Notes: generated from the sequence alone by a model not told the origin. A stretch of DNA of 64,000 nucleotides from an uncultured Bdellovibrionales bacterium (GCA_903833275.1 CAILEP010000007.1:1-64000); one strand, 5' to 3'; positions 6,924-51,802 are shown, counted from the first letter of the stretch. Translations and numbers: made by a program.

Positions 6924-6944
6924 AACTAGGTGACATTGCAACCA

Positions 6945-6967
6945 AAAGGCCAGGTGTGTCGGCCTTT
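6945..6967 (-). promoter_or_regulatory. hairpin in the leader of the Rhs-like/subtilisin operon
   Basis: Arms AAAGGCC (6945-6951) and GGCCTTT (6961-6967) are perfect, with a 9-base loop. On the minus strand the stem is followed by TTTTGG and lies 21 bases before the ATG at 6923. It resembles a weak intrinsic terminator or attenuator inside the leader. Confidence 0.45.
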
Positions 6968-7156
6968 ATGCTGTCGTCGTCTGTTAGCATCCGCGCACTT
7001 GCCTGTTAGCAGAACGGTGTAGGGCGAATCGCACAGCTGCCTAATTGAAAGGTCGTGTTGATTTCTATGCACAGTTGTCTACGTTTTGTGCGGCTGGTTA
7101 AAAATGAGATTAGCGACCTCGGCGGTGGTCGAGTCCATAAGCGTTTTGGGGTCGGC

Positions 7157-7162
7157 TATAAT
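7157..7162 (+). promoter_or_regulatory. candidate -10 box of the diguanylate cyclase gene
   Basis: A perfect TATAAT sits 75 bases before the GTG start. The hexamer 17 bases upstream (TCCATA) matches a sigma-70 -35 box poorly. An activator or an alternative start region is possible. Confidence 0.4.
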
Positions 7163-7237
7163 CGCGGTAGCGTTCATATTGCTCGAGTGCTTTCCGATAA
7201 GTACTTATAGATTTAATCGTCGTTTACGAGGTCATGA

Positions 7238-8344: not shown

Positions 8345-8365
8345 TAGCATCGATCTTAGCGGCGG

Positions 8366-9595: not shown

Positions 9596-9720
9596 GTGAG
9601 ATTCTGTCTTTGAGAAATTCCAATTGCATTCGTCGTTTAATAATTCTAGCTTACCCACGTTTATATAGTTAGTTATCGGTAATAAAATTGCCTAATTTTT
9701 CAATGGGTAGCGAGGAACAT

Positions 9721-10641
9721 ATGACGCCTAGAGTTAGAGAGATATTGACCTGGTATGGTGCTGAAAACCCCGGAGTTCTAACAAGCTTAGCTCGCATTTT
9801 AAATCACGGCCGAATTGGTGGTTCGGGCAAAATGGTTATCTTGCCCGTTGATCAGGGCTTTGAGCATGGCCCGGCGCGAAGTTTTGCGAAAAATCCAAAC
9901 GGCTATGACCCTTCTTATCATTTCAATTTAGCAATCGAATCCGGATGCAATGCTTATGCGGCACCGCTGGGCTTTATCGAGGCCTGTGCGCGAGATTATG
10001 CTGGGGACATTCCATTGATTTTAAAAATCAATAACTCTGACACCTTAATGGACGTAAAAGATAATCCGATTTCGGCAGTCACCTCGTCGGTTGAAGATGC
10101 TTTGCGCCTTGGCTGTGTGGGCATTGGGTTCACAATTTACCCCGGCTCGGGCGAGCGCAAACAAATGTACGAAGAGATTGCTGTCGCTTCAAGACAAGCA
10201 AAAAAGGCGGGGCTCGCGGTTGTGATTTGGTCTTACGCCCGCGGCAAAGACATTTCTAAAGAAGGCGAAACGGCTATTGATGTCATTGCCTATTCGGCGC
10301 ACATTGCCGCACAACTTGGCGCCAACATTATTAAGGTGAAGCCACCCAGCTCGCATATCGAACAATCCGAAGCTAAAAAAGTCTATCAAGCCCAAGGTAT
10401 TAAAGTCGAAACTATGGCGGAGCGTTCAAAGCATGTGGTCGACAGCTGTTTCAACGGGCGACGTATCGTGATTTTCAGCGGAGGGGCCTCGAAGTCGACT
10501 GAAGAAATATTAGAAGAGTCGCGCGGCCTGGCACAAGGCGGCGCCTTTGGGTCGATTATGGGTCGCAATGCCTTTCAACGTTCAAAGAAAGAAGCTATTA
10601 AGCTGATTCAAGACGTAATGGATATTTACGTCGGCCGATAA
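9721..10641 (+). CDS. fbaB: class I fructose-bisphosphate aldolase, archaeal/DhnA type
   Basis: It cleaves fructose-1,6-bisphosphate to two triose phosphates, or runs in reverse. Motifs include MVILPVDQGFEHGP, VVIWSYARGKD and the Schiff-base lysine region IIKVKPPSS near residue 205, then IFSGGASKS for phosphate binding. An ATG at 9721 with GAGGA four bases before it is preferred over in-frame TTG 9688 and ATG 9703. It is 306 residues, normal for the family. It leads an operon with lysS 18 bases downstream. Confidence 0.9.
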   Translation: MTPRVREILTWYGAENPGVLTSLARILNHGRIGGSGKMVILPVDQGFEHGPARSFAKNPNGYDPSYHFNLAIESGCNAYAAPLGFIEACARDYAGDIPLILKINNSDTLMDVKDNPISAVTSSVEDALRLGCVGIGFTIYPGSGERKQMYEEIAVASRQAKKAGLAVVIWSYARGKDISKEGETAIDVIAYSAHIAAQLGANIIKVKPPSSHIEQSEAKKVYQAQGIKVETMAERSKHVVDSCFNGRRIVIFSGGASKSTEEILEESRGLAQGGAFGSIMGRNAFQRSKKEAIKLIQDVMDIYVGR

Positions 10642-10659
10642 ATACAAACGAGAGTAAAA

Positions 10660-12135
10660 ATGTCAGAAGTGAAAGACAATCCGCTAAGAGCTGAGAAAAA
10701 AAGAAAACTACATGAATTGCGCGAAAAGGGCATCGACCCTTTTCCGCATGAATTTGATAAGAAAAATAATGCCGGTGATTTGCATGCCAAGTTTGGACAC
10801 CTCAATGCCGGCGACAAGCTTGAAAATGAAAAGGTTGTCATTGCCGGTCGACTGATGACTTTGCGAGATATGGGCAAAGCGGCGTTCTTTACTATTCAAG
10901 ATCAATCGGGTCGAATTCAAATTTATTTTCGTTCGCAAGAGATGAGTGAGCGGGCTCAGGCCTCATTTAAATTAATCGATATTGGCGACATTGTTGGCAT
11001 TACGGGGTTTGTATTTAAAACCCAAAAAGGTGAGCTCTCAATTCACGCCACGGATTTTCAGATTCTTTGCAAGACGCTAGAGCCATTGCCTGAGAAGTAT
11101 CACGGGATTGCGGACGTCGAAATCAAGTATCGTTTGCGTCACCTTGATCTCATAATGAATGAAGAGTCGCGTAAAGTTTTCGTCACTCGTTCAAAAATCA
11201 TCAGCGAATTTCGCAATTTTTTGAATGCTCGTGGGTTTCTCGAAGTAGAAACCCCGGTTTTGCAACCGGTGTACGGCGGGGCCGCGGCGCATCCGTTTTC
11301 GACCCATCATCGAGCACTCGACATGACCTTGTATTTGAAAATTAGCCCCGAGATTTATTTGAAACGATTGATCGTAGGTGGCTTCGAAAAGGTCTATGAG
11401 ATTGCCACCAATTTTCGAAATGAAGGCATTGATCGCTCGCACAACCCTGAATTTCGCATGCTTGAGTTTTATGAGGCCTACACAGATTACAAATATCAGA
11501 TGCGCCAATTCGAGGAGCTCATCGCTCACGTCGCCAAAGCCGTGACGGGTTCAACGAAGGTCATGTATCAGGGCAAAGAGATTGAATTTGCCCCGCCGTG
11601 GCGTCGACTGACGGTCAAAGATAGCATTCGCGAATATGGCGGCATTGATGTTGATAAGCTTACCGAGCAACAACTTTTTGATAAAATCAAAGAGTGGGGC
11701 TCGCATCTTGAGAGGCCCAGCACGCGTGGTGAAATGATGATGGAGGCTTTCGATCTTAAGGTTGAGCACAATCTATGGCAGCCGACGTTTATTATGGATC
11801 ACCCTGTTGAAATTTCGCCCTTAACTAAAAAGCATCGTGAACACCCCGGGTTGGTCGAGCGATTTGAACCTGTTTGCGCGGGCATGGAGATCGGCAACGC
11901 TTACACCGAGCTTAACGACCCTGAAGATCAATTTCAAAGACTCAAAGAGCAAGAGGGCAAGCGAAAGACAGACGAACAGGCGCACCCGCTCGACGAAGAT
12001 TTCATTCACGCCATTGATGTGGGTATGCCCCCCACGGGTGGCGTTGGTATTGGCGTTGAGCGCATTATTATGCTGCTCACCGACCAACCGAGTATTCGCG
12101 ACATTATTTTCTTTCCGACCATGAAGTTGAAATGA
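10660..12135 (+). CDS. lysS: lysyl-tRNA synthetase, class II
   Basis: It charges tRNA-Lys. The N-terminal OB-fold anticodon domain (about residues 55-150) has the VVIAGRLMTLRDMGKAAFFTIQD stretch. The class II motifs follow: motif 1 around FLEVETPVLQP, motif 2 FRNEGIDRSHNPEF near residue 252, and motif 3 GVGIGVERIIML near 462. The length of 491 is typical. It is second in the aldolase operon, and its stop overlaps the next start as ATGA. Confidence 0.97.
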   Translation: MSEVKDNPLRAEKKRKLHELREKGIDPFPHEFDKKNNAGDLHAKFGHLNAGDKLENEKVVIAGRLMTLRDMGKAAFFTIQDQSGRIQIYFRSQEMSERAQASFKLIDIGDIVGITGFVFKTQKGELSIHATDFQILCKTLEPLPEKYHGIADVEIKYRLRHLDLIMNEESRKVFVTRSKIISEFRNFLNARGFLEVETPVLQPVYGGAAAHPFSTHHRALDMTLYLKISPEIYLKRLIVGGFEKVYEIATNFRNEGIDRSHNPEFRMLEFYEAYTDYKYQMRQFEELIAHVAKAVTGSTKVMYQGKEIEFAPPWRRLTVKDSIREYGGIDVDKLTEQQLFDKIKEWGSHLERPSTRGEMMMEAFDLKVEHNLWQPTFIMDHPVEISPLTKKHREHPGLVERFEPVCAGMEIGNAYTELNDPEDQFQRLKEQEGKRKTDEQAHPLDEDFIHAIDVGMPPTGGVGIGVERIIMLLTDQPSIRDIIFFPTMKLK

Positions 12136-15593: not shown

Positions 15594-16201
15594 AACGCCC
15601 CTCTTTTGGCCGAGGTTGGCGAGGCAACGTTGGCAATCGAAGTGTTTTTGACCTGGCGATGGATTTGGGTTCGCGCCCGAAAGATCAAAGACTTTACGGC
15701 GGATACTGACGTCGACATTTCGCCGGCAATATCTTCATAGGTTAAATCTTCTACCGCATAGAGAAGCAGCGCCACTCGCTGTGTTTCGGGCAGTGAATCG
15801 ATAGCGGCTTTTAGCTCGAGCCAATTTTCTTTATTGAGAATTTCTTCTTCGAGCGATTGTTGGGCAGGGAGGTGCTCTCGACCCGCCGACTCGTCGCCAT
15901 CTACTGGTGATTCGGTCACAACGAGGCGATTTTCTTTTCGCAGTTCGTTGAGACAGAGATTGCGTGTTAATGTGTAAAGCCAAGCCACAAAATGCCCCTT
16001 GCCTTGATAGCTGGGAGCTAATCGAATCACCTTCATCCATATTTCTTGCGTGATATCTTCAGCGCGATCTCGCGCCAAAACGTATCGATTGGCATAGCCG
16101 AGTAAGTGGCCGCCATGTCGCAAGAACAGAACCTGAAAGGCCCGCATATCGCGAAGAGCGATTTTTGCGATCAATTCGTCGTCTGAGGAGGTGTCTTTCA
16201 T
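15590..16201 (-). CDS. ECF-family RNA polymerase sigma factor
   Basis: The ATG at 16201 has GGGAG five bases upstream. Region 2 is FLRHGGHLLGYANRYVLARDRAEDITQEIWMKVIRLAPSY, with the DITQEIWMKV promoter-melting helix. Region 4 is LPETQRVALLLYAVEDLTYEDIAGEMSTSVSAVKSLIFRAR, the -35-recognition helix-turn-helix. No region 1 or 3 is present, as in ECF factors. It leads a four-gene operon with a membrane anti-sigma candidate. A GTCTT-GAGAC palindrome lies about 90 bases upstream (16293-16307). Confidence 0.92.
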   Translation of the reverse strand: MKDTSSDDELIAKIALRDMRAFQVLFLRHGGHLLGYANRYVLARDRAEDITQEIWMKVIRLAPSYQGKGHFVAWLYTLTRNLCLNELRKENRLVVTESPVDGDESAGREHLPAQQSLEEEILNKENWLELKAAIDSLPETQRVALLLYAVEDLTYEDIAGEMSTSVSAVKSLIFRARTQIHRQVKNTSIANVASPTSAKRGAL

Positions 16202-16292
16202 ATACTCCCACAAGCTAGAAACACTCAGCTCTGGATAAAGTTGCGCTCATTCAAGAGTTCAACAAAAAGTCATTAGGTTCAAGGGGTTAGAG

Positions 16293-16307
16293 GTCTTGTT
16301 TTGAGAC
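16293..16307. repeat. degenerate copy of the GTCTCA/TGAGAC palindrome
   Basis: GTCTTGTTTTGAGAC differs by two bases from the 15-mer at 19843. It lies between the HD-GYP gene and the ECF sigma start, so it could be a regulatory site of the sigma operon. Confidence 0.35.
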
Positions 16308-16336
16308 AGCGCAGACCTTTGAAGGGCCCGTACGTT

Positions 16337-17293
16337 TTAGGGGCGGACCTTGTCTTCCATCTTAAATAAAACGGCATACATCGCTCTTAGCATGGCATCG
16401 TCATAGCGGCCAGCGAGCTTAGTGCGCATAAATTCAAGGGCAGCCGACGGCTTCATCGGCTTGTTGTAGGAGCGTTGTGTGGTCAAGGCATCAAACGTAT
16501 CGGCGAGGGCCACGATCTTGGCCATAGGGTGAATTTCGTGGGCTTGCAACTGCTGTGGGTAGCCATTGCCGGCCACGCTTTCGTGGTGCTCAAAGCAGCA
16601 GGCTTTGATGGCTTCGGTCGCTTTGTGTTCGGTTAAAATGACCAGCCCATATTGTGGATGCTTTTGCATCTGAGCCCATTCGACATCATTAAGTGGGCCG
16701 TCTTTGCAGATAATATCAACGCTCACCTGACGTTTACCAATGTCATGAAAGAGAGCGCCTTGCCCCATTTCAATTAGAGCCGCACTGTCAAAGCCGAGAA
16801 CTTGGCTGAGCCCCAAGCAGTAAATGCCGACATCAAGCGAATGCGTGTAGGTGTAAAAATCGTGACTTGAGAGCCCAATAAGATGCGCCATCGCCTCTGG
16901 CTCTGAGCCCATAAGCGCCACAAACTGTTGCACGATTTCTTTGGTTTCGACGAGTGCATTTTGTATATCAGGGCTTTCAAAAAGCTCTTCGACAAGGGTC
17001 AGCGAGCTTTCACGCAACATGATTGCTTTTTCAAGGGGGTTGAATTTTTTCGAATTCAAATTTTGGTGTACATATTTTTTGAATGCCGGTCGGTCTTCTG
17101 TGCGCACAAAAAAACTGTCGGGGGCCTTGTTTTCAAATTTAGCAAGTTTCTCTTTGGTTAGGCTGTCGCCCGCGCGCAGATAATGTATGAGCTTCTGATT
17201 AATTGAGACATAGAGGTCAAAAGGGATCGGTTCTTTCGAATCGAGCGAATGAAGTCGCACTTTTATGAAGTTTTCTGTATTTTGCTCCGCCAT
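16337..17293 (-). CDS. HD-GYP domain protein, likely cyclic di-GMP phosphodiesterase
   Basis: The HD pair is in ALFHDIGKRQV near residue 181, and the GYP motif is in HHESVAGNGYPQQL near 244, with DTFDALTTQRSY after it. In typical active members the sequence is HHERxDGxGYP; here ESVAG replaces ERxDG, so activity should be tested. The first 110 residues resemble the DUF3391-type N-terminal region. It is 318 residues and cytoplasmic. It probably degrades or senses cyclic di-GMP made by enzymes such as the one at 7238. No ribosome-binding site is obvious. Confidence 0.88.
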   Translation of the reverse strand: MAEQNTENFIKVRLHSLDSKEPIPFDLYVSINQKLIHYLRAGDSLTKEKLAKFENKAPDSFFVRTEDRPAFKKYVHQNLNSKKFNPLEKAIMLRESSLTLVEELFESPDIQNALVETKEIVQQFVALMGSEPEAMAHLIGLSSHDFYTYTHSLDVGIYCLGLSQVLGFDSAALIEMGQGALFHDIGKRQVSVDIICKDGPLNDVEWAQMQKHPQYGLVILTEHKATEAIKACCFEHHESVAGNGYPQQLQAHEIHPMAKIVALADTFDALTTQRSYNKPMKPSAALEFMRTKLAGRYDDAMLRAMYAVLFKMEDKVRP

Positions 17294-41623: not shown

Positions 41624-41697
41624 GGTGGTATGGCCGAGGAGTTAGGCACGGCTCTGCAAAAGCCGCTACGGGGGTGCGAGTCCCTCTACCACCTCCA
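41624..41697 (+). tRNA. tRNA-Cys (anticodon GCA)
   Basis: 74 bases with encoded CCA. The acceptor stem GGTGGTA pairs with TACCACC. The D-arm is GCC/GGC, the anticodon stem CGGCT/AGCCG with loop CTGCAAA (anticodon GCA at 41656-41658). The T-stem is GGGGG/CCCTC with one wobble. The T-loop is TGCGAGT, with G where U55 is nearly universal. The 3' end serves as the attachment site of the element that follows. Confidence 0.92.
41688..41697 (+). repeat. attL candidate (tRNA-Cys 3' end)
   Basis: ACCACCTCCA forms the last part of the tRNA and recurs at 50998-51007. The tRNA stays intact at this side. Confidence 0.6.
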
Positions 41698-42031
41698 TTT
41701 TTCTCCCCCCATTTTTGGGGCAAAAAGTAAGCAATCGAAAATACTAAACAATCATCTTATGTGCCCGTCAGGTCTTATTTTTATCGTAGTTTCTTAATAT
41801 TTCTTATCGTTTCTCTCGTTGGGCCAACTTTGGGCTGACGTTGGGCGAATTGTTCAGCGTCGCCCCAAGTGGGCTTTTCACACAAGCATAGTGAGCCGAT
41901 TTGGCGATCTATGACTCATTCATCCAAGATGGCCCTCAAAAGAGCTGAAAAGTTATTCTGTGAAAGCAATATGCCCTTTTGAAAGCCATCACGTTGAGAG
42001 TGCCTCTTTAATGGCCGAGAAAGGCAGGTAT
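41698..42031. other. 334-bp left-end region of the element
   Basis: A weak stem CCCC-ATTTTT-GGGG follows the tRNA but lacks a downstream T-run. Three TTGGGC repeats (41819-41846) lie further on, within an imperfect dyad up to about 41874. No gene was found; short open frames lack ribosome-binding sites. Confidence 0.5.
41819..41846 (+). repeat. three TTGGGC iterons with 11-bp period
   Basis: TTGGGC starts at 41819, 41830 and 41841, exactly one DNA helical turn apart. The right copy continues into an imperfect inverted repeat with CGTCGCCCCAAGTGGG (about 41858-41873). It could be a replication origin, an integrase-arm site or a regulator site. Confidence 0.55.
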
Positions 42032-42322
42032 ATGGAATTAAAGAGAATACTGAAAGACTTGCTTCATAAAAAAGACATAAGCGTTTCGCAGTTGGCTCGC
42101 GCTACGCGAGTGCCACGCCAAACGCTCGACAACTGGCTTGCGGGCCAAGAGCCGGGCAGCTTGAAGCAAGTCAAACAAGTCGCCAACTACTTCGCAGTGC
42201 CAATGGATTATCTCTGCTTTGGCGAGAGACAACCTGAAAGATCAATTCGTGAATACGAAGATGAAATCAACGCAGGGCTATTTGAAGTTGTACTTCGTAA
42301 AGTGAAACACAAGGGGCTTTGA
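42032..42322 (+). CDS. XRE-family helix-turn-helix regulator
   Basis: The ATG at 42032 follows AAGGCAGG; earlier in-frame starts give a non-conserved leader. The 96-residue protein has a classic lambda-repressor-like HTH (ISVSQLARATRVPRQTLDNWLAGQ, about residues 14-38), then a short tail. It resembles the Stl/CI-type control proteins of satellites. It is the first gene after the attachment site, and the next gene starts one base after its stop, so they are co-expressed. Confidence 0.85.
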   Translation: MELKRILKDLLHKKDISVSQLARATRVPRQTLDNWLAGQEPGSLKQVKQVANYFAVPMDYLCFGERQPERSIREYEDEINAGLFEVVLRKVKHKGL

Positions 42323-42323
42323 A

Positions 42324-43013
42324 ATGAACATTAAAGCAATATTGGTATTGGCTATTCTACTTGTTGCTCGCGGATCATTTGCTGGCCAAGGTGGCTTACC
42401 GTTTATGGACGGATTTAAAAATTTCTCGTGGGCCTCAAAGTTAGATGCTATCAAAAACACAGCGGGGTGCACAATTTTAGAGTTGGACATAGACCCTAAA
42501 ACCAAAAAATCGGCGACGGCCAAAGAGAGTCTGACTATGTTCTGCAATGAAAATTCGTTTCTACATTCGATGGCGCAATATAATTTTAGTTTCGTCGATG
42601 AAAAACTCGAAAAGGTCTTTATCACAATATTCACAAATGCAAAATACTTTGAATCTTTTAAACCAAACTATCCAAGCGACACCTATGTTCAAAGCGACCA
42701 GTTCAATCGCGGTTCGACTAAATATGTTAGGGTAGTATCACCAAATTATTTTCTACTTAAAGAGAAGTTCGGCTCAAAGATGAAATATTCGACGGAAGTC
42801 GATATAGAAACGTATCTTTCAAAGCGTGTGAACCGAATAGATGATGTACTGAAAGACCTGTGGCTGTCAGAATTTGCCAAAATTAAAAGCGGTGAAACAG
42901 AAGCCTTTGCCCCATATTCGTGGGTGCAGAAATCCACTAAATCGAAAGGCAAAACAACCTACATTCGTAAAGACTTTGGCAACTACGTCTCTGTCGAGAT
43001 AGATCGTCAATGA
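42324..43013 (+). CDS. exported hypothetical protein (satellite cargo)
   Basis: A 229-residue protein with a signal peptide ending near SFA. It is rich in Phe, Lys and Ser; one Cys pair (AGCTI, MFCNE) may form a disulfide. No family is recognised. It follows the HTH gene directly and overlaps the next gene by ATGA, so the three form an operon. Export from a satellite is unusual. Confidence 0.65.
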   Translation: MNIKAILVLAILLVARGSFAGQGGLPFMDGFKNFSWASKLDAIKNTAGCTILELDIDPKTKKSATAKESLTMFCNENSFLHSMAQYNFSFVDEKLEKVFITIFTNAKYFESFKPNYPSDTYVQSDQFNRGSTKYVRVVSPNYFLLKEKFGSKMKYSTEVDIETYLSKRVNRIDDVLKDLWLSEFAKIKSGETEAFAPYSWVQKSTKSKGKTTYIRKDFGNYVSVEIDRQ

Positions 43014-43492
43014 AACCATTGGGGATTGGGGGCAACTTGAAATTCTTGATCTTCGCCATCGGAATCTTGATTGTAAGACAGGCCGGTGCGGATGACATTC
43101 AGGTCGCGTGTCAGATCAATGCGTTGCAAAATACCTGTACGTTCACCAATACCGGCAACTTATCACAAAGCCAGTGCATTTTAGCGATGATGACCAATCA
43201 TAAGTCGAATACGAAAATTGACTCAATAGAACTTTGCTCTGGCGATCTTGAAGCGAAGTCATCTAAGTCCCTTGCTCTTGCATTTAAGGGCGGTATTTTA
43301 CCGGCGGCATTTTGTTTGGGATCAAATCTTGAGGGGAGCTGGGACGATTGTTCGCTCAAAGTAAACGAATCGTCATCAAGTGGCGGCTGGTCAACCATGC
43401 TGATGTGGTTTGCGATTGCCGCAATATTGGGGCTTTTTCAGGCAAAAAAGAAAGCGGTACGACCGAAGTCCGAATCTGAGCTGGCTTCTTAG
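43010..43492 (+). CDS. exported membrane-anchored hypothetical protein (satellite cargo)
   Basis: 160 residues. An N-terminal signal (FLIFAIGILIVRQAGAD) is followed by a Cys-containing domain (CQINALQNTCTF, CSGDL, CLGSN, DDCSL). A C-terminal transmembrane helix (TMLMWFAIAAILGLFQA) is next to a basic tail, which would leave the Cys-rich domain in the periplasm. It is coupled to the previous gene by ATGA. No family is recognised. Confidence 0.65.
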   Translation: MKPLGIGGNLKFLIFAIGILIVRQAGADDIQVACQINALQNTCTFTNTGNLSQSQCILAMMTNHKSNTKIDSIELCSGDLEAKSSKSLALAFKGGILPAAFCLGSNLEGSWDDCSLKVNESSSSGGWSTMLMWFAIAAILGLFQAKKKAVRPKSESELAS

Positions 43493-43494
43493 CG

Positions 43495-43554
43495 ACATAG
43501 ATTTTGCCCTGATTCAAAATGAAACAAGGGCGAAAAAATTTGACTGATCTATGT
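43495..43554 (+). promoter_or_regulatory. nested inverted repeats between cargo operons
   Basis: The outer arms ACATAGAT (43495-43502) and ATCTATGT (43547-43554) are perfect. The inner arms TTGCCCT (43504-43510) and AGGGCGA (43527-43533) pair with one wobble. No T-run follows, so a regulatory fold, operator pair or weak terminator is possible. Confidence 0.5.
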
Positions 43555-43629
43555 TAATTACCAATAAGTAAAAAATCCGAAAATACCGATGATTATTCGA
43601 CGGCAAATATCTAAATTCGGAGAGTATTC

Positions 43630-44286
43630 ATGAAAAGAAAATACAAGGTTGGCCTTTTCGTTCTGTTCGGTTTTTGCTGGTACATCGCTGTAAAATCGCC
43701 ATCAAGCAATTCTATGGCATCCTCTGATGAGGTGAATACCGAGCCGTCGGCAAAACAAGCAAAATCGCCGCAATCAAAAAAAGCGAAACAAGTTGAGTGG
43801 GACGGGCACTATGAGGGCTTAAACTGTGGCACTGCCGATCAATGTGCCGGGGTCGCAGCAACTCTTGTTGGTCAGAACAAAAACGCCGAGGCGACTGGTT
43901 ATTATGCAGCGGCTTGTGCAAAGGGAGGTGCTGGTTCGTGTTACCTCGTGGGCATGAGTTATGACGGCTTAACCGCGAAAGGCTCAACTGAAAAAATTAA
44001 AGCAGCGCGGGAGTGGTATAAAAAAGGTTGCGAAATTGATGGCGATTCAAATAATTGCTTTGGCGCAATAAATATCGATCTTGAATTAAGCAATCTTACC
44101 GAAGCGAAGTCACTATTTAAGGCCACTTGTGTCGTTGATGAAAAATGGTGTGAGCTTAATATTTCGGGCACAAATGATTCAAAGTATAAGAAGAGAAATG
44201 CTGCCGCGAAGCAAATGCTGAAATCTTCTTGTGATGAAGGTTTCGCCATTTCTTGCAATATTTTGGCGAAAAATGGGGGCAAATGA
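43630..44286 (+). CDS. exported Sel1-like Cys-rich repeat protein
   Basis: An N-terminal hydrophobic segment (KVGLFVLFGFCWYIAV) anchors or exports the protein. After a Lys/Ser-rich linker come TPR/Sel1-like helical repeats with regularly spaced Cys pairs (NCGTADQCAG, ACAKGGAGSCYLVG, GCEIDGDSNNCFG). This recalls the disulfide-linked Sel1-like repeats of Helicobacter cysteine-rich proteins. Such proteins bind partners outside the cytoplasm. Its stop overlaps the PLD gene start. Confidence 0.75.
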   Translation: MKRKYKVGLFVLFGFCWYIAVKSPSSNSMASSDEVNTEPSAKQAKSPQSKKAKQVEWDGHYEGLNCGTADQCAGVAATLVGQNKNAEATGYYAAACAKGGAGSCYLVGMSYDGLTAKGSTEKIKAAREWYKKGCEIDGDSNNCFGAINIDLELSNLTEAKSLFKATCVVDEKWCELNISGTNDSKYKKRNAAAKQMLKSSCDEGFAISCNILAKNGGK

Positions 44287-44846
44287 TATTGCCAATCCGC
44301 ACTTCATTCATTCTGAGCATTTCACTTTTAGCACAAATATCTTGGGGCGCAGAGGTGTACTTCAGCCCAAGTCGCGATTGCGAGACACAAATAGTTAAGG
44401 CAATAGACGCAACAAAATTAGAGATTGTAGCGGCGGTATATTCAATAAATAACAACCGAATAGTTGATTCTTTTAAGCGGGCCAAAGCGCGGGGAGTGAA
44501 AATTCGAATACTTACGGATCGCACACAAGCTGCAGGGCACAGTTCAAAAGTTGTCGAGCTGTCAAAGTTAGGTTTTGATATTCGTGTTCATTCAAAAAAT
44601 AAAATCGAACATAATAAATTTGGGGTATTTGATTCGAGCCTAGCCGTCAATGGCAGTTATAATTGGACAAATCCCGCAAGTGATTCAAATAGTGAAAATT
44701 GCGTTGTGTTCACTGAAAAGAATATTATTTCAGCATACCAAAAGCGATTTGGTGAGCTATGGCAAATAAATACAGACATGAAATCAAAACAATATTTGGG
44801 CAAAATCCAAAAATCTGTAGAGCGTCGTGCTGCGTCCGATGAATAG
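44283..44846 (+). CDS. exported phospholipase D-family nuclease (single HKD)
   Basis: The ATG at 44283 overlaps the previous stop (ATGA). A signal peptide ends near SWGA. A single HKD motif H-N-K-F-G-V-F-D near residue 111 is followed by NGSYNWT, the Nuc-type pattern; two subunits would form one active site. Length 187, close to the Nuc endonucleases of plasmids. The signal peptide implies action in the periplasm or outside, where it could cut DNA of a phage, a plasmid or a competitor. Confidence 0.85.
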   Translation: MILPIRTSFILSISLLAQISWGAEVYFSPSRDCETQIVKAIDATKLEIVAAVYSINNNRIVDSFKRAKARGVKIRILTDRTQAAGHSSKVVELSKLGFDIRVHSKNKIEHNKFGVFDSSLAVNGSYNWTNPASDSNSENCVVFTEKNIISAYQKRFGELWQINTDMKSKQYLGKIQKSVERRAASDE

Positions 44847-44894
44847 AAGCAATAGCGCGAACAAACTATGTTTTTTTGTATTTTAGGGGGCAAA

Positions 44895-45641
44895 TTGAAA
44901 TTGCCATTTTCGGTGCCAGCCATAGCGAATAGTTTAGCCCGCTTGGCAAAGCCAGCACGAATTTTCGCCTTTGTCTCAACCATGCCAATCATTTTGATTT
45001 CAAGAAACAATCTACTATCAGCGGAGTGGTCAACTTTGGCGACTTCAGCGGGATTGCTCTTTTCAATATGGGGAGTCTGGTTCACGCTTGAGATTTTCAG
45101 AATCGGAGTTGAATTTTCGGATCAGCAACAAAAGCTAATTGATGAGGTTCGTCGAACAGTTTTGGTCGGGCCAAAATTTCAACATTTGCAAGAGCTACGT
45201 CGGCTTTATACAGAATCTAATGGCAAGGGCGATGAAGAGCTGACGGCTTATTGGCATTTTATGTGGCGATTTGAGTCTTACAACACATTGACGCTAATGT
45301 TTAATGACAAGGGTTTTGTGAAAGTGCGGATTTTAGGGGTCAGCAATTCCCCGCTTGAGACTGAATACGAAAAAATAATACATCCGATTTACTCGGTTCA
45401 AGTGATCGATATTGGCGATCACGAGGGCTTGAAGGGCGGGCGGGCATATTGTTGGATCGTCAACGGTAAAGCATATATTAGCAACGAAGCAAATCAAATT
45501 GAACTGAAACAGCCAATGTACGAATTTAGAATATCGGGGCTTGGCTCGTCTCACGTACGCACTGTCGGCGACCGACCGAAAAATTTTAGGCGTTTGAAAG
45601 ATGTGTCGGATTTATCTTCGGCAAACGAAGATCAGGGATAG
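44895..45641 (+). CDS. membrane protein partnered with a PD-(D/E)XK nuclease
   Basis: The TTG at 44895 has AGGGGG four bases upstream; an ATG at 44868 in the same frame lacks any site. Two hydrophobic helices (FAFVSTMPIILI and LATSAGLLFSIWGVWFTLEIF) are followed by a soluble C-terminal region of about 165 residues with strand-rich segments. No known domain is recognised. The nuclease gene starts three bases after its stop. A membrane sensor or anchor for that nuclease is a reasonable guess. Confidence 0.6.
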   Translation: MKLPFSVPAIANSLARLAKPARIFAFVSTMPIILISRNNLLSAEWSTLATSAGLLFSIWGVWFTLEIFRIGVEFSDQQQKLIDEVRRTVLVGPKFQHLQELRRLYTESNGKGDEELTAYWHFMWRFESYNTLTLMFNDKGFVKVRILGVSNSPLETEYEKIIHPIYSVQVIDIGDHEGLKGGRAYCWIVNGKAYISNEANQIELKQPMYEFRISGLGSSHVRTVGDRPKNFRRLKDVSDLSSANEDQG

Positions 45642-45644
45642 GTA

Positions 45645-46511
45645 ATGTCGCAGATTAAAGATAAATTTATTGATTGGCGCGATGTTTTTAGAATTGATCG
45701 GGTACTTAAATCACGTGGTTTTGAAGTAACAAATGTTGGTACATTATCAAGCACTTTGCTGAGTCACGAAAATTGGTCAAACTCAGAAAAGCAATTGCTC
45801 TTCGATGTAATGAATTCCGATAAACTAAGAAGTCAACTATTGTTCTTTATCGAAGGCAAAGCCGGGTTTGAAATTGATCCTTTAGTTGAGCAGCTCATTA
45901 AAAACGCAAACTTTCGCAAGGATCGACAAAGATTTTCGACTTCGTTTGAGTGGTATTTGGGAGAATTATTTGTAAAGCACTTTGGAGCATTTTCGGGTGC
46001 ATTTGGCGTAGAGGTTTCAAATATCTTTCGGAATAGCACCGGCACAAAGGCTGGCGACTTCGATGTGTTGGCAGTTCTTGCCGACCTAAGTCTGTTATAC
46101 ATTGAAGCAAAGACTGAAGAATTTCAAAGAAAAAAGGTTGAGAAGGCATTGGAGCGAAGTATGGCCCTTCATACGTCAGCGGTTGTTATGCTTACAAGTG
46201 AGCAATTTGATCCGATTAAATTTAAGCCAGCTCTTAAAGACCTAGAACATCCAATTTGGGGCAAAACTCAGTCGTTCGACAAAATCAAAATCAAGGGTGA
46301 GCCGGACAGCGAAATTTTTCTTTGGTGTAATCAAATTTATTTTGTTTCGGCCAATGAACGCCACGGCAAATTAGAGCCTAAATTACGCATGGTGCTAAGA
46401 GATATTGGCTTTAAGCGATCAATTCACGGATTTTCGAGTGAAATCGCGAAAGATTATTCTGCTGCTGGCTATGAATATGAAGAGATTTTATTCGAGGCAC
46501 CGAAGCCATAA
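45645..46511 (+). CDS. PD-(D/E)XK-fold nuclease-like protein
   Basis: Residues about 137-155 show GDFDVLAVLADLSLLYIEAK, that is G-D-x-D followed by strand and E-x-K, the catalytic core of restriction-endonuclease-like enzymes. A helix with EWYLGELF precedes it, as the fold needs. The remaining parts are helical N-terminal and strand-rich C-terminal regions with no named family. Length 288. It is paired with the membrane protein before it and lies inside a satellite, a common setting for anti-phage systems. Confidence 0.7.
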   Translation: MSQIKDKFIDWRDVFRIDRVLKSRGFEVTNVGTLSSTLLSHENWSNSEKQLLFDVMNSDKLRSQLLFFIEGKAGFEIDPLVEQLIKNANFRKDRQRFSTSFEWYLGELFVKHFGAFSGAFGVEVSNIFRNSTGTKAGDFDVLAVLADLSLLYIEAKTEEFQRKKVEKALERSMALHTSAVVMLTSEQFDPIKFKPALKDLEHPIWGKTQSFDKIKIKGEPDSEIFLWCNQIYFVSANERHGKLEPKLRMVLRDIGFKRSIHGFSSEIAKDYSAAGYEYEEILFEAPKP

Positions 46512-46555
46512 TTTTAAAAATTCACAGTTTGATTCTGTTTGTCGAGGTATGGGGG

Positions 46556-47056
46556 GTGGAGCAAAAACGCGACGAATTGAATATAAAACAGAAGAAATTC
46601 TGTCTTAGCTACTTGATTGACTTTAATGCTACGAGAGCCGCCATTGAGGCTGGGTATTCAAAGCGATCAGCATATTCTATCGGCAATGCGTTATTGAAAA
46701 AACATGAGGTTAGAGCCTTTATCAAGCAATACCAAGATGAGTTGGCCGATAGTTTCTTTGTAAACCAAAGCCATATAATTTTTGAGTTGGCGAGATATGC
46801 GTTTCGCCAGCGAGGCTCTTCTTTCAAAGACGTGACGGCCAAAGACTCTATTGTCGCGCTTAATTTGCTTGGCAAGCACTTGGGAATGTTTCAAGAGAAA
46901 GAAGCTGTGCCGGTCGAACTACCTTACGAAAAGGCCCTGAAAGAGGCATTTAAGAAACTCGACGAGAAGAGGGATGCAATTAGATTAGAAGCTCAAAGTA
47001 ATTCAGTCGCAAATCCATCTAAAATTCCCATTGGCGGAAGTGAGCGGAGAGATTAG
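46556..47056 (+). CDS. phage terminase small subunit (TerS)
   Basis: A GTG at 46556 with GAGG nine bases upstream gives 166 residues. The N-terminal domain has LNIKQKKFCLSYLIDFNATRAAIEAGYSKRSAYSIGNALL, the Terminase_2 HTH pattern that recognises pac/cos DNA. A helical oligomerisation region and a charged tail follow. No large terminase gene is next to it. In satellites such a TerS redirects the helper phage motor to satellite DNA. Its 3' end overlaps the convergent gene by 38 bases. Confidence 0.85.
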   Translation: MEQKRDELNIKQKKFCLSYLIDFNATRAAIEAGYSKRSAYSIGNALLKKHEVRAFIKQYQDELADSFFVNQSHIIFELARYAFRQRGSSFKDVTAKDSIVALNLLGKHLGMFQEKEAVPVELPYEKALKEAFKKLDEKRDAIRLEAQSNSVANPSKIPIGGSERRD

Positions 47057-47861
47057 TTTCGTTAAGAATTTTGTATAGAGATATAACCAAAGAGCGTTCA
47101 TCAAATTTGAGCTGGCGGTCTTTTTCGTCATGAATATTTTCTGATTTATAAGTCTTACGATACTGTCTTTCAAGATCATACGACCACTTTTTTGAATCGG
47201 GTAAATCTGACCTCGACACTAGGTTCAATGGCGAATATCGCTTTAGAATATCTTCAGAGGTTTTTCTTTCAGCGATCGGACTATTGTGAGTTTTATAGAG
47301 TCTATCAATGTAGTTTTGCGCGGCCATTCGCTGATATTCGTGAACTGATGAGGTGCCAAGATATTCGCGATACCAGTTCATATTGGTATTGCTTCGGCGT
47401 AAATATTTTAAACCCGCCAAAATAGATGCTGCGATTTCTTTGGGCAACAACGATGGCCCTCGTTTTTTACTTGAAATGCTCACAAGTGCTTTTTTCAGTG
47501 CTTCTACATTAAGCAGCATATTGTCGCAAATTTTCTCCATTTTTTTAATGTTGTCAAGTTCGGCAGACCGATAATCAAGTATCAAAAAATTCAACGTCGG
47601 ACTTTTTAACACCAATTGATTGCGCAGTTGTCGTAGCAAATCTTGAATGGCTTTGACGCGTTTCTTTGCCCGATTTATTTCAACTTTAATGGCGATCTTC
47701 TTTTTCTTACCAGTTAATATTTTATCGTAAAAAAAGCCATGAACGATTTCATGGCAATGCGCCCTCAGGTAAAACTCGATTACCGCTTGAACTTTTTCAC
47801 ATTCGGCGTTTGGCGGCGGTTTAAGTCGAATAAATTCGGCTGGTTTTTTGTAGTTTTTCAT
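47019..47861 (-). CDS. hypothetical basic protein of the satellite
   Basis: 280 residues, basic, helical, with no signal peptide and many Lys/Arg/Leu. A GAGGAATTTCAA site precedes the ATG. Motifs such as SSKKRGPSLLPKEIAASILAGLKYLRRS are of unknown meaning. It is the only minus-strand gene in the element and faces terS, overlapping it by 38 bases. It is divergent from the replication operon. A nucleic-acid or phage-interference role is only a guess. Confidence 0.55.
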   Translation of the reverse strand: MKNYKKPAEFIRLKPPPNAECEKVQAVIEFYLRAHCHEIVHGFFYDKILTGKKKKIAIKVEINRAKKRVKAIQDLLRQLRNQLVLKSPTLNFLILDYRSAELDNIKKMEKICDNMLLNVEALKKALVSISSKKRGPSLLPKEIAASILAGLKYLRRSNTNMNWYREYLGTSSVHEYQRMAAQNYIDRLYKTHNSPIAERKTSEDILKRYSPLNLVSRSDLPDSKKWSYDLERQYRKTYKSENIHDEKDRQLKFDERSLVISLYKILNETNLSAHFRQWEF

Positions 47862-47912
47862 TTGAAATTCCTCGTCTAGTTGTCTGGCGAATCATCGTCT
47901 AAACCATTCGGC

Positions 47913-47930
47913 AGCAGCAATCAAGCTGCT
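47913..47930. promoter_or_regulatory. operator-like dyad before the XRE/replication operon
   Basis: AGCAGC (47913-47918) and GCTGCT (47925-47930) are perfect complements with a 6-base gap. It lies 19 bases before the XRE gene start in a divergent promoter. Binding by that protein is plausible. Confidence 0.4.
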
Positions 47931-47949
47931 AGGTAACTAAGGAGCGTAT

Positions 47950-48171
47950 ATGAACCGTTTAAGAAATTTGAGGCTAGATTTGAATTTGAGCCAGCATGAA
48001 TTGGCCAATATTAGTGGTGTGTCGAGGGCGACTATACAGCTCATTGAACGCGGATACAGACAGCCGAGCCAAAATGAATTGCTCGCTTTCGCTGAGTCAC
48101 TTGGGGTTAAAGAGAATGAAATACTCGGCGAACATAACGGTATGGAGGTGCGGCATGATAAAAGCGTCTAA
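47950..48171 (+). CDS. XRE/Cro-type DNA-binding protein
   Basis: 73 residues. The HTH (about residues 6-36) has NLRLDLNLSQHELANISGVSRATIQLIERGYRQPS, with the typical polar hinge. A strong AAGGAGCG precedes the start. It leads the operon that contains the replication, excisionase and integrase genes and overlaps the next start by 17 bases. A dyad at 47913-47930 is a candidate operator. It likely acts as a Cro-like control. Confidence 0.85.
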   Translation: MNRLRNLRLDLNLSQHELANISGVSRATIQLIERGYRQPSQNELLAFAESLGVKENEILGEHNGMEVRHDKSV

Positions 48172-49573
48172 GCCCAAAATGTCAGACGAAGTTAGGCCAA
48201 TTTTTTATAGCCAATGGTCTGATGATTGCGGGCCCATTTACTTAGTCGATAACGAAGGTCTTGCTATAGAGTTGAACTCTCGTGGATTGCCAGCGACCGC
48301 TTTTATTGGCGCCGCTCAAAACTGGAAGAGCGAGTATTCAATCTATTTTTCGCGCAAAAAAGTTATTTTGTTGTCGGAGGATAGGATTCAAGGATTGAGA
48401 TTTGCGAATAAGGCATATCGTGAATTAAGTAAAGTAGCGACTAGTGTCAGAGTAATCTTAATAAGTGAGCTGATAAACAATGCGGACGCTGTAAGTTATT
48501 TAAAAACTTTTGGTACATTGGAGGCGTTCATTTCTAAGGTCAACTCCGGTGAAGATGATATGCATAGGTTACAGCAAGAGCTATTAAAACGAGGAGAGGG
48601 AAGGCTCAATTTTTATTCAGCCGCCGAAATTCTTTCAAGCAAAATTCCACCTACAGATTGGTTGTGGGAGGGGGTGCTTCCGGCAGGGGGAGTATCGGCA
48701 ATAGTTGGTAAACCAAAAATGGGTAAGACAACTTTCGCAAAGTTTCTAGCCTCAAGAATGATAACGGGCGAGGGTATTTTTGGGCGAGCGACAAAAAAAT
48801 GCAGTGCATTGCTTATTTTGCTTGAGGAAGTTGAGTCAGAATTAAAAGTGACTTTGACCAAACTTGGAGTTGCGCCTGAGGCGCCAATGCATTTTCACAT
48901 TTGTTCTCAAGTTAGTGATGGGTTGTCAGAATTAGAATCGGTCATTGATGATTTATCGCCGGGCATTGTCATTATCGATCCGATCTTTCAGTTTATCGAG
49001 GTCAAAGATACAAACGATTATCCAGAAATTTCAAAGCGAATAAGGTCGCTGGTTTTGATCGCTCGAAAAAGCGGTGCGCATATCATGATTCTTCACCACC
49101 AGAATAAAAATGGCGTCGAAGCAAATGGTGTTCTAGGGAGCACTGGTTTTTTTGGCGCTCTCGACACCCTCATTTTGCTAGGACGCGAGAAAGATAGAGT
49201 TACACTTTCGAGCAAACAACGGTTTGGCGAGCCATTCGACCCGGCCATATATCTTAATTTCGACCAAAACACGGCATCGTTTAAAGTTGGCGGAGATCAG
49301 GCCACATCAACGGACATTGAAATTAGAGATAATATTCTTGGATTGTTTGTCTGTGATGAGCCCATTACATATCGAGATATTAAAGAGAACGTAACGGGCA
49401 AGGCTTCATCAATCGGTGCGATTCTTAATGATTTGGTTTCAAAAGGTACGTTAGTTAAAGAAAAGGGATCTAGGGGTGCTTTCAGTTTCAGGCTTGCGGT
49501 TCCCAATTCTCCCCCTTATAAGGGGGGCAACGGGAATGACTTTGAGACGCAAGGCAGCGGGGTAGCACAATGA
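48155..49573 (+). CDS. Toprim-like plus RepA-type AAA ATPase replication protein
   Basis: The ATG at 48155 follows GGAGGTG; earlier in-frame starts lie inside the HTH gene. The 472-residue product has an N-terminal Toprim-like part (VILLSEDRIQGLRFANKAYRELS near residues 60-90, then VRVILISELINNADAVSYL) and a RecA/RepA-type ATPase: Walker A VGKPKMGKTTF near 185, IVIIDP as Walker B near 270, and ILHHQNKNG near 310. It fits the satellite's replication initiator/helicase. It overlaps the excisionase gene as ATGA. Confidence 0.8.
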   Translation: MIKASKPKMSDEVRPIFYSQWSDDCGPIYLVDNEGLAIELNSRGLPATAFIGAAQNWKSEYSIYFSRKKVILLSEDRIQGLRFANKAYRELSKVATSVRVILISELINNADAVSYLKTFGTLEAFISKVNSGEDDMHRLQQELLKRGEGRLNFYSAAEILSSKIPPTDWLWEGVLPAGGVSAIVGKPKMGKTTFAKFLASRMITGEGIFGRATKKCSALLILLEEVESELKVTLTKLGVAPEAPMHFHICSQVSDGLSELESVIDDLSPGIVIIDPIFQFIEVKDTNDYPEISKRIRSLVLIARKSGAHIMILHHQNKNGVEANGVLGSTGFFGALDTLILLGREKDRVTLSSKQRFGEPFDPAIYLNFDQNTASFKVGGDQATSTDIEIRDNILGLFVCDEPITYRDIKENVTGKASSIGAILNDLVSKGTLVKEKGSRGAFSFRLAVPNSPPYKGGNGNDFETQGSGVAQ

Positions 49574-49773
49574 GGCACCAAGCTGAACATTCCGGGGTGC
49601 TCTTTGACAAAAAAATATGGATGAATACGAGTGAGGCGGCTGAATATCTTAGAATTTCGGTGAATAGTTTGCGACTTCGAGTTTGGAAGGGCCAAATTCA
49701 GGCGCATAAATTTAACCGGCTTCTACGTTTTAAAAAAGCTGACCTCGATTTGCACATAAGACCAACGAAATAG
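49570..49773 (+). CDS. excisionase-like helix-turn-helix protein
   Basis: 67 residues, start overlapping the previous stop as ATGA. The HTH_17/excisionase pattern is MNTSEAAEYLRISVNSLRLRVWKGQIQAHKFNRLLRFKKADLDLHI, from about residue 18. Such proteins bend DNA and direct the integrase toward excision. The position just before the integrase gene fits this role. Confidence 0.8.
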   Translation: MRHQAEHSGVLFDKKIWMNTSEAAEYLRISVNSLRLRVWKGQIQAHKFNRLLRFKKADLDLHIRPTK

Positions 49774-49782
49774 AGAGGTCTT

Positions 49783-50928
49783 ATGGCAATTCAAGAATAT
49801 GAAAAAAACAGCGAGCGGCTTTTTAAAGTTATTGTAAGAGTGCGGTCGAAACAGCATAGGCATTTGCGCTCGCAGAAATGTCAGTCTGGTATTAAATCGC
49901 GGCGAGAGGCTGAAAAGATAGAACGCCAATTGGCACGAGTTGCGCACACAAATTTATCGGCCAAAGAGAATAGAGACATTTGTTTTGGCACTCTAATCGA
50001 TAAGTGGGAGCTGGCTCTGAGACAAGGAACCGGTTCAATGCGTATGTTGGTCAAGACCACTCAAGAAGACTATGTGTATGTGCTTCGTAGTTTCGCATCC
50101 GACTGGTTCAAGCGACCGGTCGATCAAATCAGTGGAGCCGACGTTCGAGACGTGCTTGAGCAAATTCATACGGATGGTAAATCGCGAGATAGGCAGAAAC
50201 GATTCAAGACAGCTATTGACGGGATTTACAAATGGGGCATTGAGACGAGGCAAATTAAGGGCGTTCACTTCAGCCCGTCAAAAGGCGTCAGTCTTATCGG
50301 GCGAATTGTAGAGAAGCCGCCAGAGATTCTGACTATTGCCGAAATTCGACTTCTCATGAGCAAGGCGCGCGAGATGCGCCACTCTTGGTACCCCGTATGG
50401 GCGATGGCATTATTGACGGGTTGTCGGTGCGGTGAGCTTTATAGCTTGAAATGGACTGACGTTGATTTTGAGCAAAAGCGGATTCAAATATCAAGGTCGT
50501 ACAATAAGCGAACGCGAACATACGGCCCAACCAAAGCGGGCTATTGGCGCGACGTACCCATCAATGCCGACCTAGAGAAGCTATTAAAAGAGCTGAAGTT
50601 AAGTGGCGGGAGCGGCGAGTTTGTACTGCCCCATCACTCAATGTGGTCGAAATACCAGCAAGCGGCTGTTCTAAGACAATTTTGTACCGAAATCGGCATA
50701 TCGTCCGTGAAGTTTCATACGCTTCGAGCCTGTTTTGCTACTCAGCTTTTGAAAGACAGCGTTGCGCCGTCAGTGGTGATGAAGGTTTGCGGTTGGAAGG
50801 ATTTAAAAACAATGCAGCGATATGTACGAATGGCTGGCATTGAAGTCGAAGGCGCAACTAATTCTTTGAAGATCATGCCCGACGAAATGGTATATGGCCG
50901 AGTGGTCGAAATGTTCGATCCGAAGTGA
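49783..50928 (+). CDS. phage-type tyrosine integrase
   Basis: 381 residues. An N-terminal arm-binding region (residues 1-70) and a SAM-like core-binding domain are followed by the catalytic domain: Arg in LTGCRCGELYSLKW near residue 213, His-x-x-Arg in FHTLRACFATQLL near 312, and the nucleophile Tyr in MQRYVRMAG at 347. The second His position of the box is Trp (CGWKDLKT), as in many phage integrases. GAGGTC precedes the start. It probably acts at the tRNA-Cys site. Confidence 0.92.
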   Translation: MAIQEYEKNSERLFKVIVRVRSKQHRHLRSQKCQSGIKSRREAEKIERQLARVAHTNLSAKENRDICFGTLIDKWELALRQGTGSMRMLVKTTQEDYVYVLRSFASDWFKRPVDQISGADVRDVLEQIHTDGKSRDRQKRFKTAIDGIYKWGIETRQIKGVHFSPSKGVSLIGRIVEKPPEILTIAEIRLLMSKAREMRHSWYPVWAMALLTGCRCGELYSLKWTDVDFEQKRIQISRSYNKRTRTYGPTKAGYWRDVPINADLEKLLKELKLSGGSGEFVLPHHSMWSKYQQAAVLRQFCTEIGISSVKFHTLRACFATQLLKDSVAPSVVMKVCGWKDLKTMQRYVRMAGIEVEGATNSLKIMPDEMVYGRVVEMFDPK

Positions 50929-50997
50929 AAAATAGGGGTGTTTGGCGAATCTCAAGCGATAATGACGATAACTGATTGAAATTATTGATGAGGCGAC

Positions 50998-51007
50998 ACC
51001 ACCTCCA
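50998..51007 (+). repeat. attR candidate of the satellite
   Basis: ACCACCTCCA is identical to the tRNA-Cys 3' end at 41688-41697. It lies 69 bases after the integrase stop codon, where attR is expected. Confidence 0.6.
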
Positions 51008-51130
51008 AAATCGTTTTATACGCCCATCTGCTTTGTTGACGGCACCCTCGCTTCGTTGCGACGTACGTTTACGTACGCCTCACTTCGCTCGGGTTTGTCG
51101 CCGCGCAGCTGGGCGTATAAAACGATTTTG
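51006..51130. repeat. 125-bp imperfect palindrome (REP/MITE-like)
   Basis: The outer arms 51006-51026 and 51110-51130 are exact 21-bp complements (CAAAATCGTTTTATACGCCC followed by A). The centre has CGTACGT/ACGTACG around 51062-51076. The middle is only loosely paired. It could be a structured repeat mobilised by a transposase elsewhere. Confidence 0.75.
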
Positions 51131-51222
51131 CTGGTCGAAGATGGAAAGTCGGACTTGCAAGTTCGGGACGTGCGACCGAAAAGCCAGGATGGCCCGAAGC
51201 AGTCCCTAACCATCTCCAAATC

Positions 51223-51257: not shown

Positions 51258-51539
51258 ATGTGGGAAGTTTTAGAGAGCCGCATCGCTGAAAAGAACATTG
51301 ACCGGCTTCCAAAGAATATTCTTGAGAAGTATGAGTTTTGGAAAAGTGTTGTCCATATTTCAGGTTCAGAAGGTCTCAGGGCCTTTAAAGGCTTTAAGGA
51401 TCATCCACTTAAAGGTGAGTGGAAAGGTCATGGATCTTCTTACTTAAACGACACCTACCGAGTGATTTACATGACTGACGGTCAAAACGTGCGAGTCTAT
51501 GTTGTTGATGTAAATCCTCATGATTACAGAAGGAGATAG
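51258..51539 (+). CDS. RelE/HigB-like toxin, mRNA interferase family
   Basis: 93 residues. The C-terminal pattern GSSYLNDTYRVIYMTDGQNVRVYVVDVNPHDY matches RelE/HigB toxins that cut mRNA on the ribosome. It precedes its antitoxin, the toxin-first order of the HigBA class. No ribosome-binding site precedes the ATG. The gene sits just outside the satellite right end. Confidence 0.85.
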   Translation: MWEVLESRIAEKNIDRLPKNILEKYEFWKSVVHISGSEGLRAFKGFKDHPLKGEWKGHGSSYLNDTYRVIYMTDGQNVRVYVVDVNPHDYRRR

Positions 51540-51541
51540 AA

Positions 51542-51802
51542 GTGGCTGATTTCGTTAAATCAAAAAAAAGAGTGAGTTTAAGCCCTGGCGATGCGGTTCG
51601 AGTGGCTCGAGAAATGCTGGGCCTTTCACAGAATGATTTGGCTCAAAGGTGCAAAATTCCACAGCCCACAATCTCTGGGATCGAATCTGGCAAGATTTCG
51701 CTGGGGGTCGAGAGAGCGAAGAAGCTCGCTTTAGCAATGGGTGTTCACCCGGCTGTTTTGCTTTTTCCGGACTGGAAATTAAACACGTCGTCGGTAGCTT
51801 AA
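51542..51802 (+). CDS. XRE-family antitoxin (HigA-like)
   Basis: 86 residues, GTG start with AAGGAG eight bases upstream, two bases after the toxin stop. The HTH is VAREMLGLSQNDLAQRCKIPQPTISGIESGKISLG (about residues 19-55). HigA-type antitoxins neutralise the toxin and repress the operon. The strong ribosome-binding site contrasts with the toxin gene, which has none, favouring antitoxin excess. Confidence 0.85.
   Translation: MADFVKSKKRVSLSPGDAVRVAREMLGLSQNDLAQRCKIPQPTISGIESGKISLGVERAKKLALAMGVHPAVLLFPDWKLNTSSVA

Follow-up and report, generated by a model that had tools for sequence, protein, structure and literature searches.

How does a small integrated element move between bacterial genomes when it carries a phage packaging gene and none of the genes for a phage particle? 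This question is raised by a 64-kb stretch of DNA from an uncultured Bdellovibrionales bacterium (GCA_903833275.1 CAILEP010000007.1:1-64000), hereafter the window, to whose positions all coordinates refer unless a locus is named. The window is part of a draft genome (G000) of 35 contigs and 97% completeness, and an initial annotation had described in it a 9.3-kb satellite resembling the phage-inducible chromosomal islands (PICIs), integrated at a tRNA-Cys gene. The best-known phage satellites are those of Firmicutes cocci, Enterobacteria, Pasteurellaceae and Vibrio; many Bdellovibrionota are predators of other bacteria, and phages and gene transfer are little studied among them.

The locus is an integrative island with its own integrase (Int), excisionase (Xis), regulators, replication helicase and terminase small subunit (TerS), and with no other detectable virion or packaging gene. 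It is almost certainly a mobile integrative element, and we consider it likely to function as a helper-dependent chromosomal phage satellite of Bdellovibrionales, a status drawn from its gene content because TerS is present without the large terminase subunit (TerL). Its most likely means of spread would be the packing of element DNA into the particles of another phage. The initial annotation knew of no such satellite in this kind of host, and our literature search likewise found none in Bdellovibrio or Bdellovibrionota; as far as we found, the island family described below is new to the phylum, a novelty that is provisional because coverage of the literature was incomplete. If the satellite reading is true, phage satellites would extend to a phylum of bacterial predators.

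An integrative element at the 3' end of tRNA-Cys

The ends given in the initial annotation were recovered as exact copies. The sequence ACCACCTCCA occurs exactly twice in the window, once as the 3' end of tRNA-Cys and once 70 bp past the integrase stop, and the span between these two attachment (att) repeats is 9.3 kb. A chance repeat was considered and rejected, given that shuffling the 100 bp after int 200,000 times produced ACCACCTCCA in 7 cases, and that the 70-bp spacing agrees with the 64–99 bp seen in several relatives. The GC content of the element is 42.6% vs 48.7% for the rest of the window, where none of the sampled stretches of element length fell below 47%. Insertion at its 3' end has left tRNA-Cys intact; xerC-type and comM genes lie upstream of it and an unrelated flank on the other side. 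Three short direct repeats near the left end (Table 1) are statistically weak alone (7 of 100 shuffles), and relatives also have short element-specific direct repeats near their left end, often again after int, as integrase arm sites would be; such a role is suggestive only. A further feature of the right end is an inverted repeat at 51001-51135, with 31-bp arms, 90% complementary, around a 73-bp loop, which starts inside the attR core and runs into the chromosomal flank; its arm has no further copy in the window.

Almost all genes of the element are co-oriented, including those for both XRE regulators, the replication protein, Xis and Int, all on the + strand, with xis and int adjacent at the end far from the tRNA. 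Pfam and PHROGs matches bear out the integrase, the excisionase-like gene and the two XRE regulators of the initial annotation; the coding sequence of XRE1, the regulator next to the tRNA, starts at 42032, corrected from 41960. The replication protein had been described as of Toprim/RepA type, of which the RepA/AAA_25 part stands, while the Toprim part found no Pfam confirmation in the window protein, Toprim_3 being confirmed in relatives. Genes related to this RepA adjoin xis-int at two other loci (L202 and L213) and lie 1.1 kb upstream of int at a third (L079). An integrative mobilisable element moved by conjugation could likewise sit at a tRNA gene with an integrase, xis and rep, an explanation that we find scarcely credible: no relaxase is among the Pfam matches of any gene of the window element, and TerS has no role in conjugation.

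A terminase small subunit without a large one

The identification of TerS was upheld by Pfam, PHROGs and structure searches (Table 1). Residues 12-128 align with the SF6 TerS structure 3zqp, which argues for a protein near full length, and shorter matches to further small-terminase entries were obtained. Neither a large terminase nor a portal or other structural gene was detected at 41.7-51.0 kb with Pfam, PHROGs and custom TerL and portal models, and no phage lytic gene with Pfam and PHROGs. The element thus lacks detectable structural phage genes, as first claimed, and the large terminase or portal gene that the initial annotation had named as evidence for a prophage remnant was looked for and not found. 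All the checks suggested there that were feasible turned out in its favour.

Is this peculiar to the window? Terminase_2 matches occur in 25 of the 369 genomes of the phylum, and the 12 strongest loci besides the window, each in a further genome, were examined with a TerL model derived from viral contigs together with three annotated phages. TerL lies near 36 of 44 related TerS genes on viral contigs vs none of the 12 Bdellovibrionota loci, and none in the window. Moreover, Terminase_3, TerL_ATPase and Phage_portal had no match in any of the 13 TerS-carrying genomes (the window's included), and phrog_2 matched in only one of them, G121, on a contig other than that of TerS. TerS, integrase, Xis and XRE are each of a kind that prophages carry, and a decayed prophage stripped of its structural genes would have kept them. 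With TerL so regularly beside viral TerS and TerS orphaned at 12 loci, where the portal is missing as well, a prophage remnant is therefore unlikely. Furthermore, whatever the family or tRNA site, the backbone keeps to 5-11 kb, with int, xis and rep intact and no structural genes found, and the genes of the window element read open and intact. We reject this explanation on the conserved small size and the lack of TerL and portal at every TerS locus; it is largely refuted and, to our judgement, very improbable.

Four further TerS loci are bounded by tRNA-end repeats: two at tRNA-Pro (L186, 6.9 kb with a 19-bp repeat and carrying XRE1, and L189, 8.3 kb with a 21-bp repeat), one at tRNA-Glu (L187, 10.3 kb, 52-bp repeat) and one at tRNA-Met (L192, 5.8 kb, 45-bp repeat). 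At L188, in a single-contig genome, TerS has a D5 primase and an integrase as neighbours. In the TerS tree L186 pairs with L189 (100/95) and five island TerS fall into a group of moderate support (80/85), that of the window having no confident placement. As judged from these comparisons, TerS is a putative packaging module that is optional within a wider Bdellovibrionota backbone.

The optional nature of TerS brings in another explanation, in which the locus is an integrative genomic island with defence or other cargo that, once excised, replicates and is passed on by transformation or generalised transduction, TerS being a captured passenger. Most members with the same backbone do lack TerS, and their cargo is variable and partly defence-like (PLD/DrmC, an NsnB-like AAA_15 in L189, PDC-S33 in L038). 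However, several separate tRNA-bounded islands with unrelated cargo have TerS at a distance from TerL, and its alignment with SF6 TerS covers almost the whole protein; these facts imply that TerS is selected for. In accepted PICIs, moreover, terS is optional as well (PMC6092414). We regard a genomic island of this kind as rather unlikely.

A common backbone across Bdellovibrionota

The initial annotation had proposed a search for the same gene set at tRNA-Cys of related genomes, and its backbone was indeed found there, in the order tRNA 3' end, XRE1, cargo, exchangeable replication gene, xis, int and att repeat. The related island lies in a genome of another bacterial family (G038, locus L033), in the same xerC-comM-tRNA-Cys neighbourhood. 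Over the aligned domain its XRE1 is 72% identical to that of the window, and the identities of Xis and Int are 72% and 64%; its cargo is entirely different, its primase is of the Prim-Pol/DUF3987 kind, and its tRNA-end repeat measures 12 bp. XRE1 is 66% identical in L034, where Int again reaches 64%, and 59% in L038; Xis identities in relatives are 72, 71 and 62%. G030 has the backbone at tRNA-Asp, with a 17-bp repeat. Altogether nine islands of 5.1-11.2 kb, including the window element, combine tRNA, XRE1, cargo, xis, int and a tRNA-end repeat, at tRNA-Cys (2), -Asp, -Pro, -Ser, -Asn and -Arg (3), the repeats at the sites other than tRNA-Cys measuring 12-34 bp. The window element shows all the features of this XRE1-rep-xis-int island family, as we define it here. 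A replication gene lies upstream of xis-int in most of the nine, and its class varies from island to island: Prim-Pol with DUF3987, DUF5906, Prim-Pol with AAA_25, zinc-ribbon/DUF7146/Toprim_3/AAA_25, AAA_25 alone, or D5-like.

XRE1-like genes occur in 129 of the 369 genomes, the stronger matches alone being examined, and an integrase scan of 84,980 species gave 79 loci, nearly all labelled as Bdellovibrionota or as groups formerly placed there. We lean towards the view that these islands represent a phylum-wide family of tRNA-targeted phage satellites, with a tRNA-proximal XRE1, a distal xis-int pair, freely exchanged replication genes and a plug-in TerS, which phages of predatory bacteria would move. 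With one backbone occurring both with TerS and without it, the islands offer a natural series in which to test what turns an integrative island into a phage satellite, and the tRNA 3' end, the XRE1 tail motif, the HTH_17-int pair and the att repeat supply a simple signature for searching them.

Comparison of the tRNA-Cys site with genomes lacking the element, also suggested at the outset, succeeded in part. In the same genus, G005 (L048) has a transporter gene after tRNA-Cys and no such element, and G004 has other sequence. In G001 (L047) the remains of an integrase lie around 15970-17083, about 1 kb past tRNA-Cys, and the left end there resembles that of the family; we read this as a decayed island at tRNA-Cys, which is thus a variable hot spot. 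No exact empty site with both flanks was found in these genomes, which share the comM-tRNA-Cys side and not the right flank.

Other loci may hold more than one element. Beyond attR of a tRNA-His island (L197 in G088, about 3940-10700; 25-bp repeat at 10051) there is an XRE1 gene at a distance of about 350 bp, which suggests a second element in tandem. The window's own genome contains two further integrases of the same broad group (G000:C35:2158-2997 and G000:C20:197444-198457), each with an HTH_17 Xis-like neighbour, and these are possible additional islands.

Comparison with known satellites and phages

By the features tested, the element is neither a PICI nor a PICMI, yet it appears PICI-like in function. 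As PICIs and Staphylococcus aureus pathogenicity islands (SaPIs) do, it combines an integrase, an excision gene, a replication gene, HTH regulators, an optional terS, a specific att site and variable cargo with a lack of structural and lytic genes. On the other hand, PICIs have a divergent regulatory gene pair, flanked by int next to the repressor and by xis-rep on the opposite side (PMC6092414), whereas here XRE1 lies next to the tRNA and xis-int at the other extremity, and the only element gene divergent from XRE2 is an orphan gene at 47019-47861. PICIs are also typically of about 15 kb vs 9.3 kb here, and no known PICI interference gene was found in the window element. The PICI likeness of the initial annotation thus holds for the gene set and the optional terS, and fails for the repressor layout and the size.

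The PICMIs, minimalist satellites of Vibrionaceae, are defined by int (PF00589), AlpA (PF12728/PF05930), a DUF3987/DUF5906 primase and integration at fis (PMC10803314). The window element has in common with them int (PF00589), an AlpA-like HTH_17 protein (PF12728), small size and direct-repeat att sites. It differs in its AAA_25 helicase, the primase being present in the relatives L033 and L034, in its location, shared with its relatives, at a tRNA 3' end, and in its TerS, which PICMI115 lacks; of the PICMI genes it has int and AlpA only, while L033 and L034 have int, AlpA and primase. Tycheposons and VEIMEs are proposed marine satellite families (PMC11389934), in other phyla and compared here by description, for which phage-borne mobility is proposed, as for the window element; tycheposons also have a tRNA-associated tyrosine recombinase and variable cargo (PMC10872708). 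As for phages, TerS of the SPP1/SF6 type is homologous to that of the window (PF03592; 3zqp), but the three annotated phages examined have terL and portal directly behind terS, unlike the window.

How the element would move

On the model of established satellite biology, from which the following steps are taken, XRE1, XRE2 or both would keep the element silent until a helper phage lifts the repression. Int and Xis would then excise the element as a circle, to be replicated by RepA with host or helper enzymes. TerS would recognise a pac-like site on the element DNA and join the large terminase and procapsid of the helper, so that the element is loaded into helper particles, and after delivery it would reintegrate at tRNA-Cys. 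As for the cargo (PLD, Sel1-like, possible nuclease), it may benefit the host or counter rival phages.

Several points weigh against this picture. We infer mobilisation, helper and packaging from sequence, and neither a pac or cos site nor a replication origin was identified in the element. TerS might have some other function or be carried along as a passenger; it is present in a minority of the family, and since most backbone relatives lack it, the backbone as a whole need not be phage-borne. Searches of IMG/VR viral contigs with XRE1 and Int found no close relative, and those with XRE1, integrase, RepA, the orphan gene and the nuclease gave nothing or one distant match each, so that virion packaging is without support from IMG/VR. 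Finally, the own draft genome has no match to the phrog_2, Terminase_3, TerL_ATPase and portal models, and a helper prophage in the same genome was rejected on these matches; the helper, if any, would be external or undetected.

Cargo and neighbouring genes

Table 1. Features of the window element and its insertion site
Feature	Position	Strand	Evidence or remarks
tRNA-Cys (GCA)	41624..41697	+	ARAGORN; Rfam RF00005, 54 bits; last 10 bp are attL
attL core ACCACCTCCA	41688..41697	+	tRNA-Cys 3' end
Three ~11-bp direct repeats	41817..41850	+	TTGGGC at 41819, 41830, 41841; candidate integrase arm sites or operators; related copy at 50942 after int
XRE1, repressor-type regulator	42032..42322	+	HTH_3 3.1e-06; family hallmark; conserved tail INAG.FEVVLR.VK
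Two cargo genes	42324..43492	+	N-terminal signal-like/hydrophobic segments; no family match
Sel1/TPR-like cargo protein	43630..44286	+	weak TPR-S, 0.004
PLD-family (PLDc_2) protein, DrmC-like	44253..44846	+	Pfam 5.8e-25; PADLOC DrmC 6.9e-12
Membrane-like cargo protein	44868..45641	+	weak Yip1 match alone
Possible PD-(D/E)XK nuclease	45645..46511	+	immediately upstream of terS; weak PADLOC CARF_PDDEXK 0.006; GDFDVL...EAKT motif by eye
terS (SPP1/SF6 type)	46529..47056	+	Terminase_2 2.9e-24; phrog_51 1.8e-29; PDB 3zqp 8.1e-13
Orphan helical protein	47019..47861	-	convergent with and overlapping terS; AlphaFold pLDDT 40
XRE2, small regulator upstream of rep	47950..48171	+	HTH_3 6.7e-15
RepA/AAA_25-type replicative helicase	47996..49573	+	likely start 48155 or 48179; AAA_25 5.8e-23; phrog_906/239/19 primase-helicase families
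xis/AlpA-type HTH_17 protein	49570..49773	+	PF12728 2.1e-10; PHROGs excisionase 8e-4; start overlaps rep stop
Tyrosine integrase	49783..50928	+	PF00589 2.6e-22; PHROGs 2.8e-49
attR core ACCACCTCCA	50998..51007	+	exact 10-mer copy of tRNA-Cys 3' end

Beyond the genes of the initial annotation, the element encodes Sel1/TPR-like, PLD-family and possible PD-(D/E)XK proteins, and the orphan gene convergent with terS. The fold prediction for the possible nuclease was uninformative (pLDDT about 40), and no relatives of the orphan protein were found in 141 genomes of the order or in IMG/VR.

Possible defence genes were also seen in other islands. The tRNA-Asp island L038 contains, at 5773-8625, a 950-aa cargo protein with an N-terminal PADLOC PDC-S33 match. 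In the TerS-carrying tRNA-Pro island L189, an NsnB/AriA-like AAA_15 ATPase (PADLOC 5.4e-52) and a neighbouring gene occupy 7627-10115, which would make this locus a satellite with a likely anti-phage system. Directly outside attR in the window, at 51258-51802, a YafQ/YoeB-like toxin gene is followed by an HTH_3 antitoxin-like gene, and relatives of the toxin occur in three loci that were fetched for their integrase (L061, L074 and L091).

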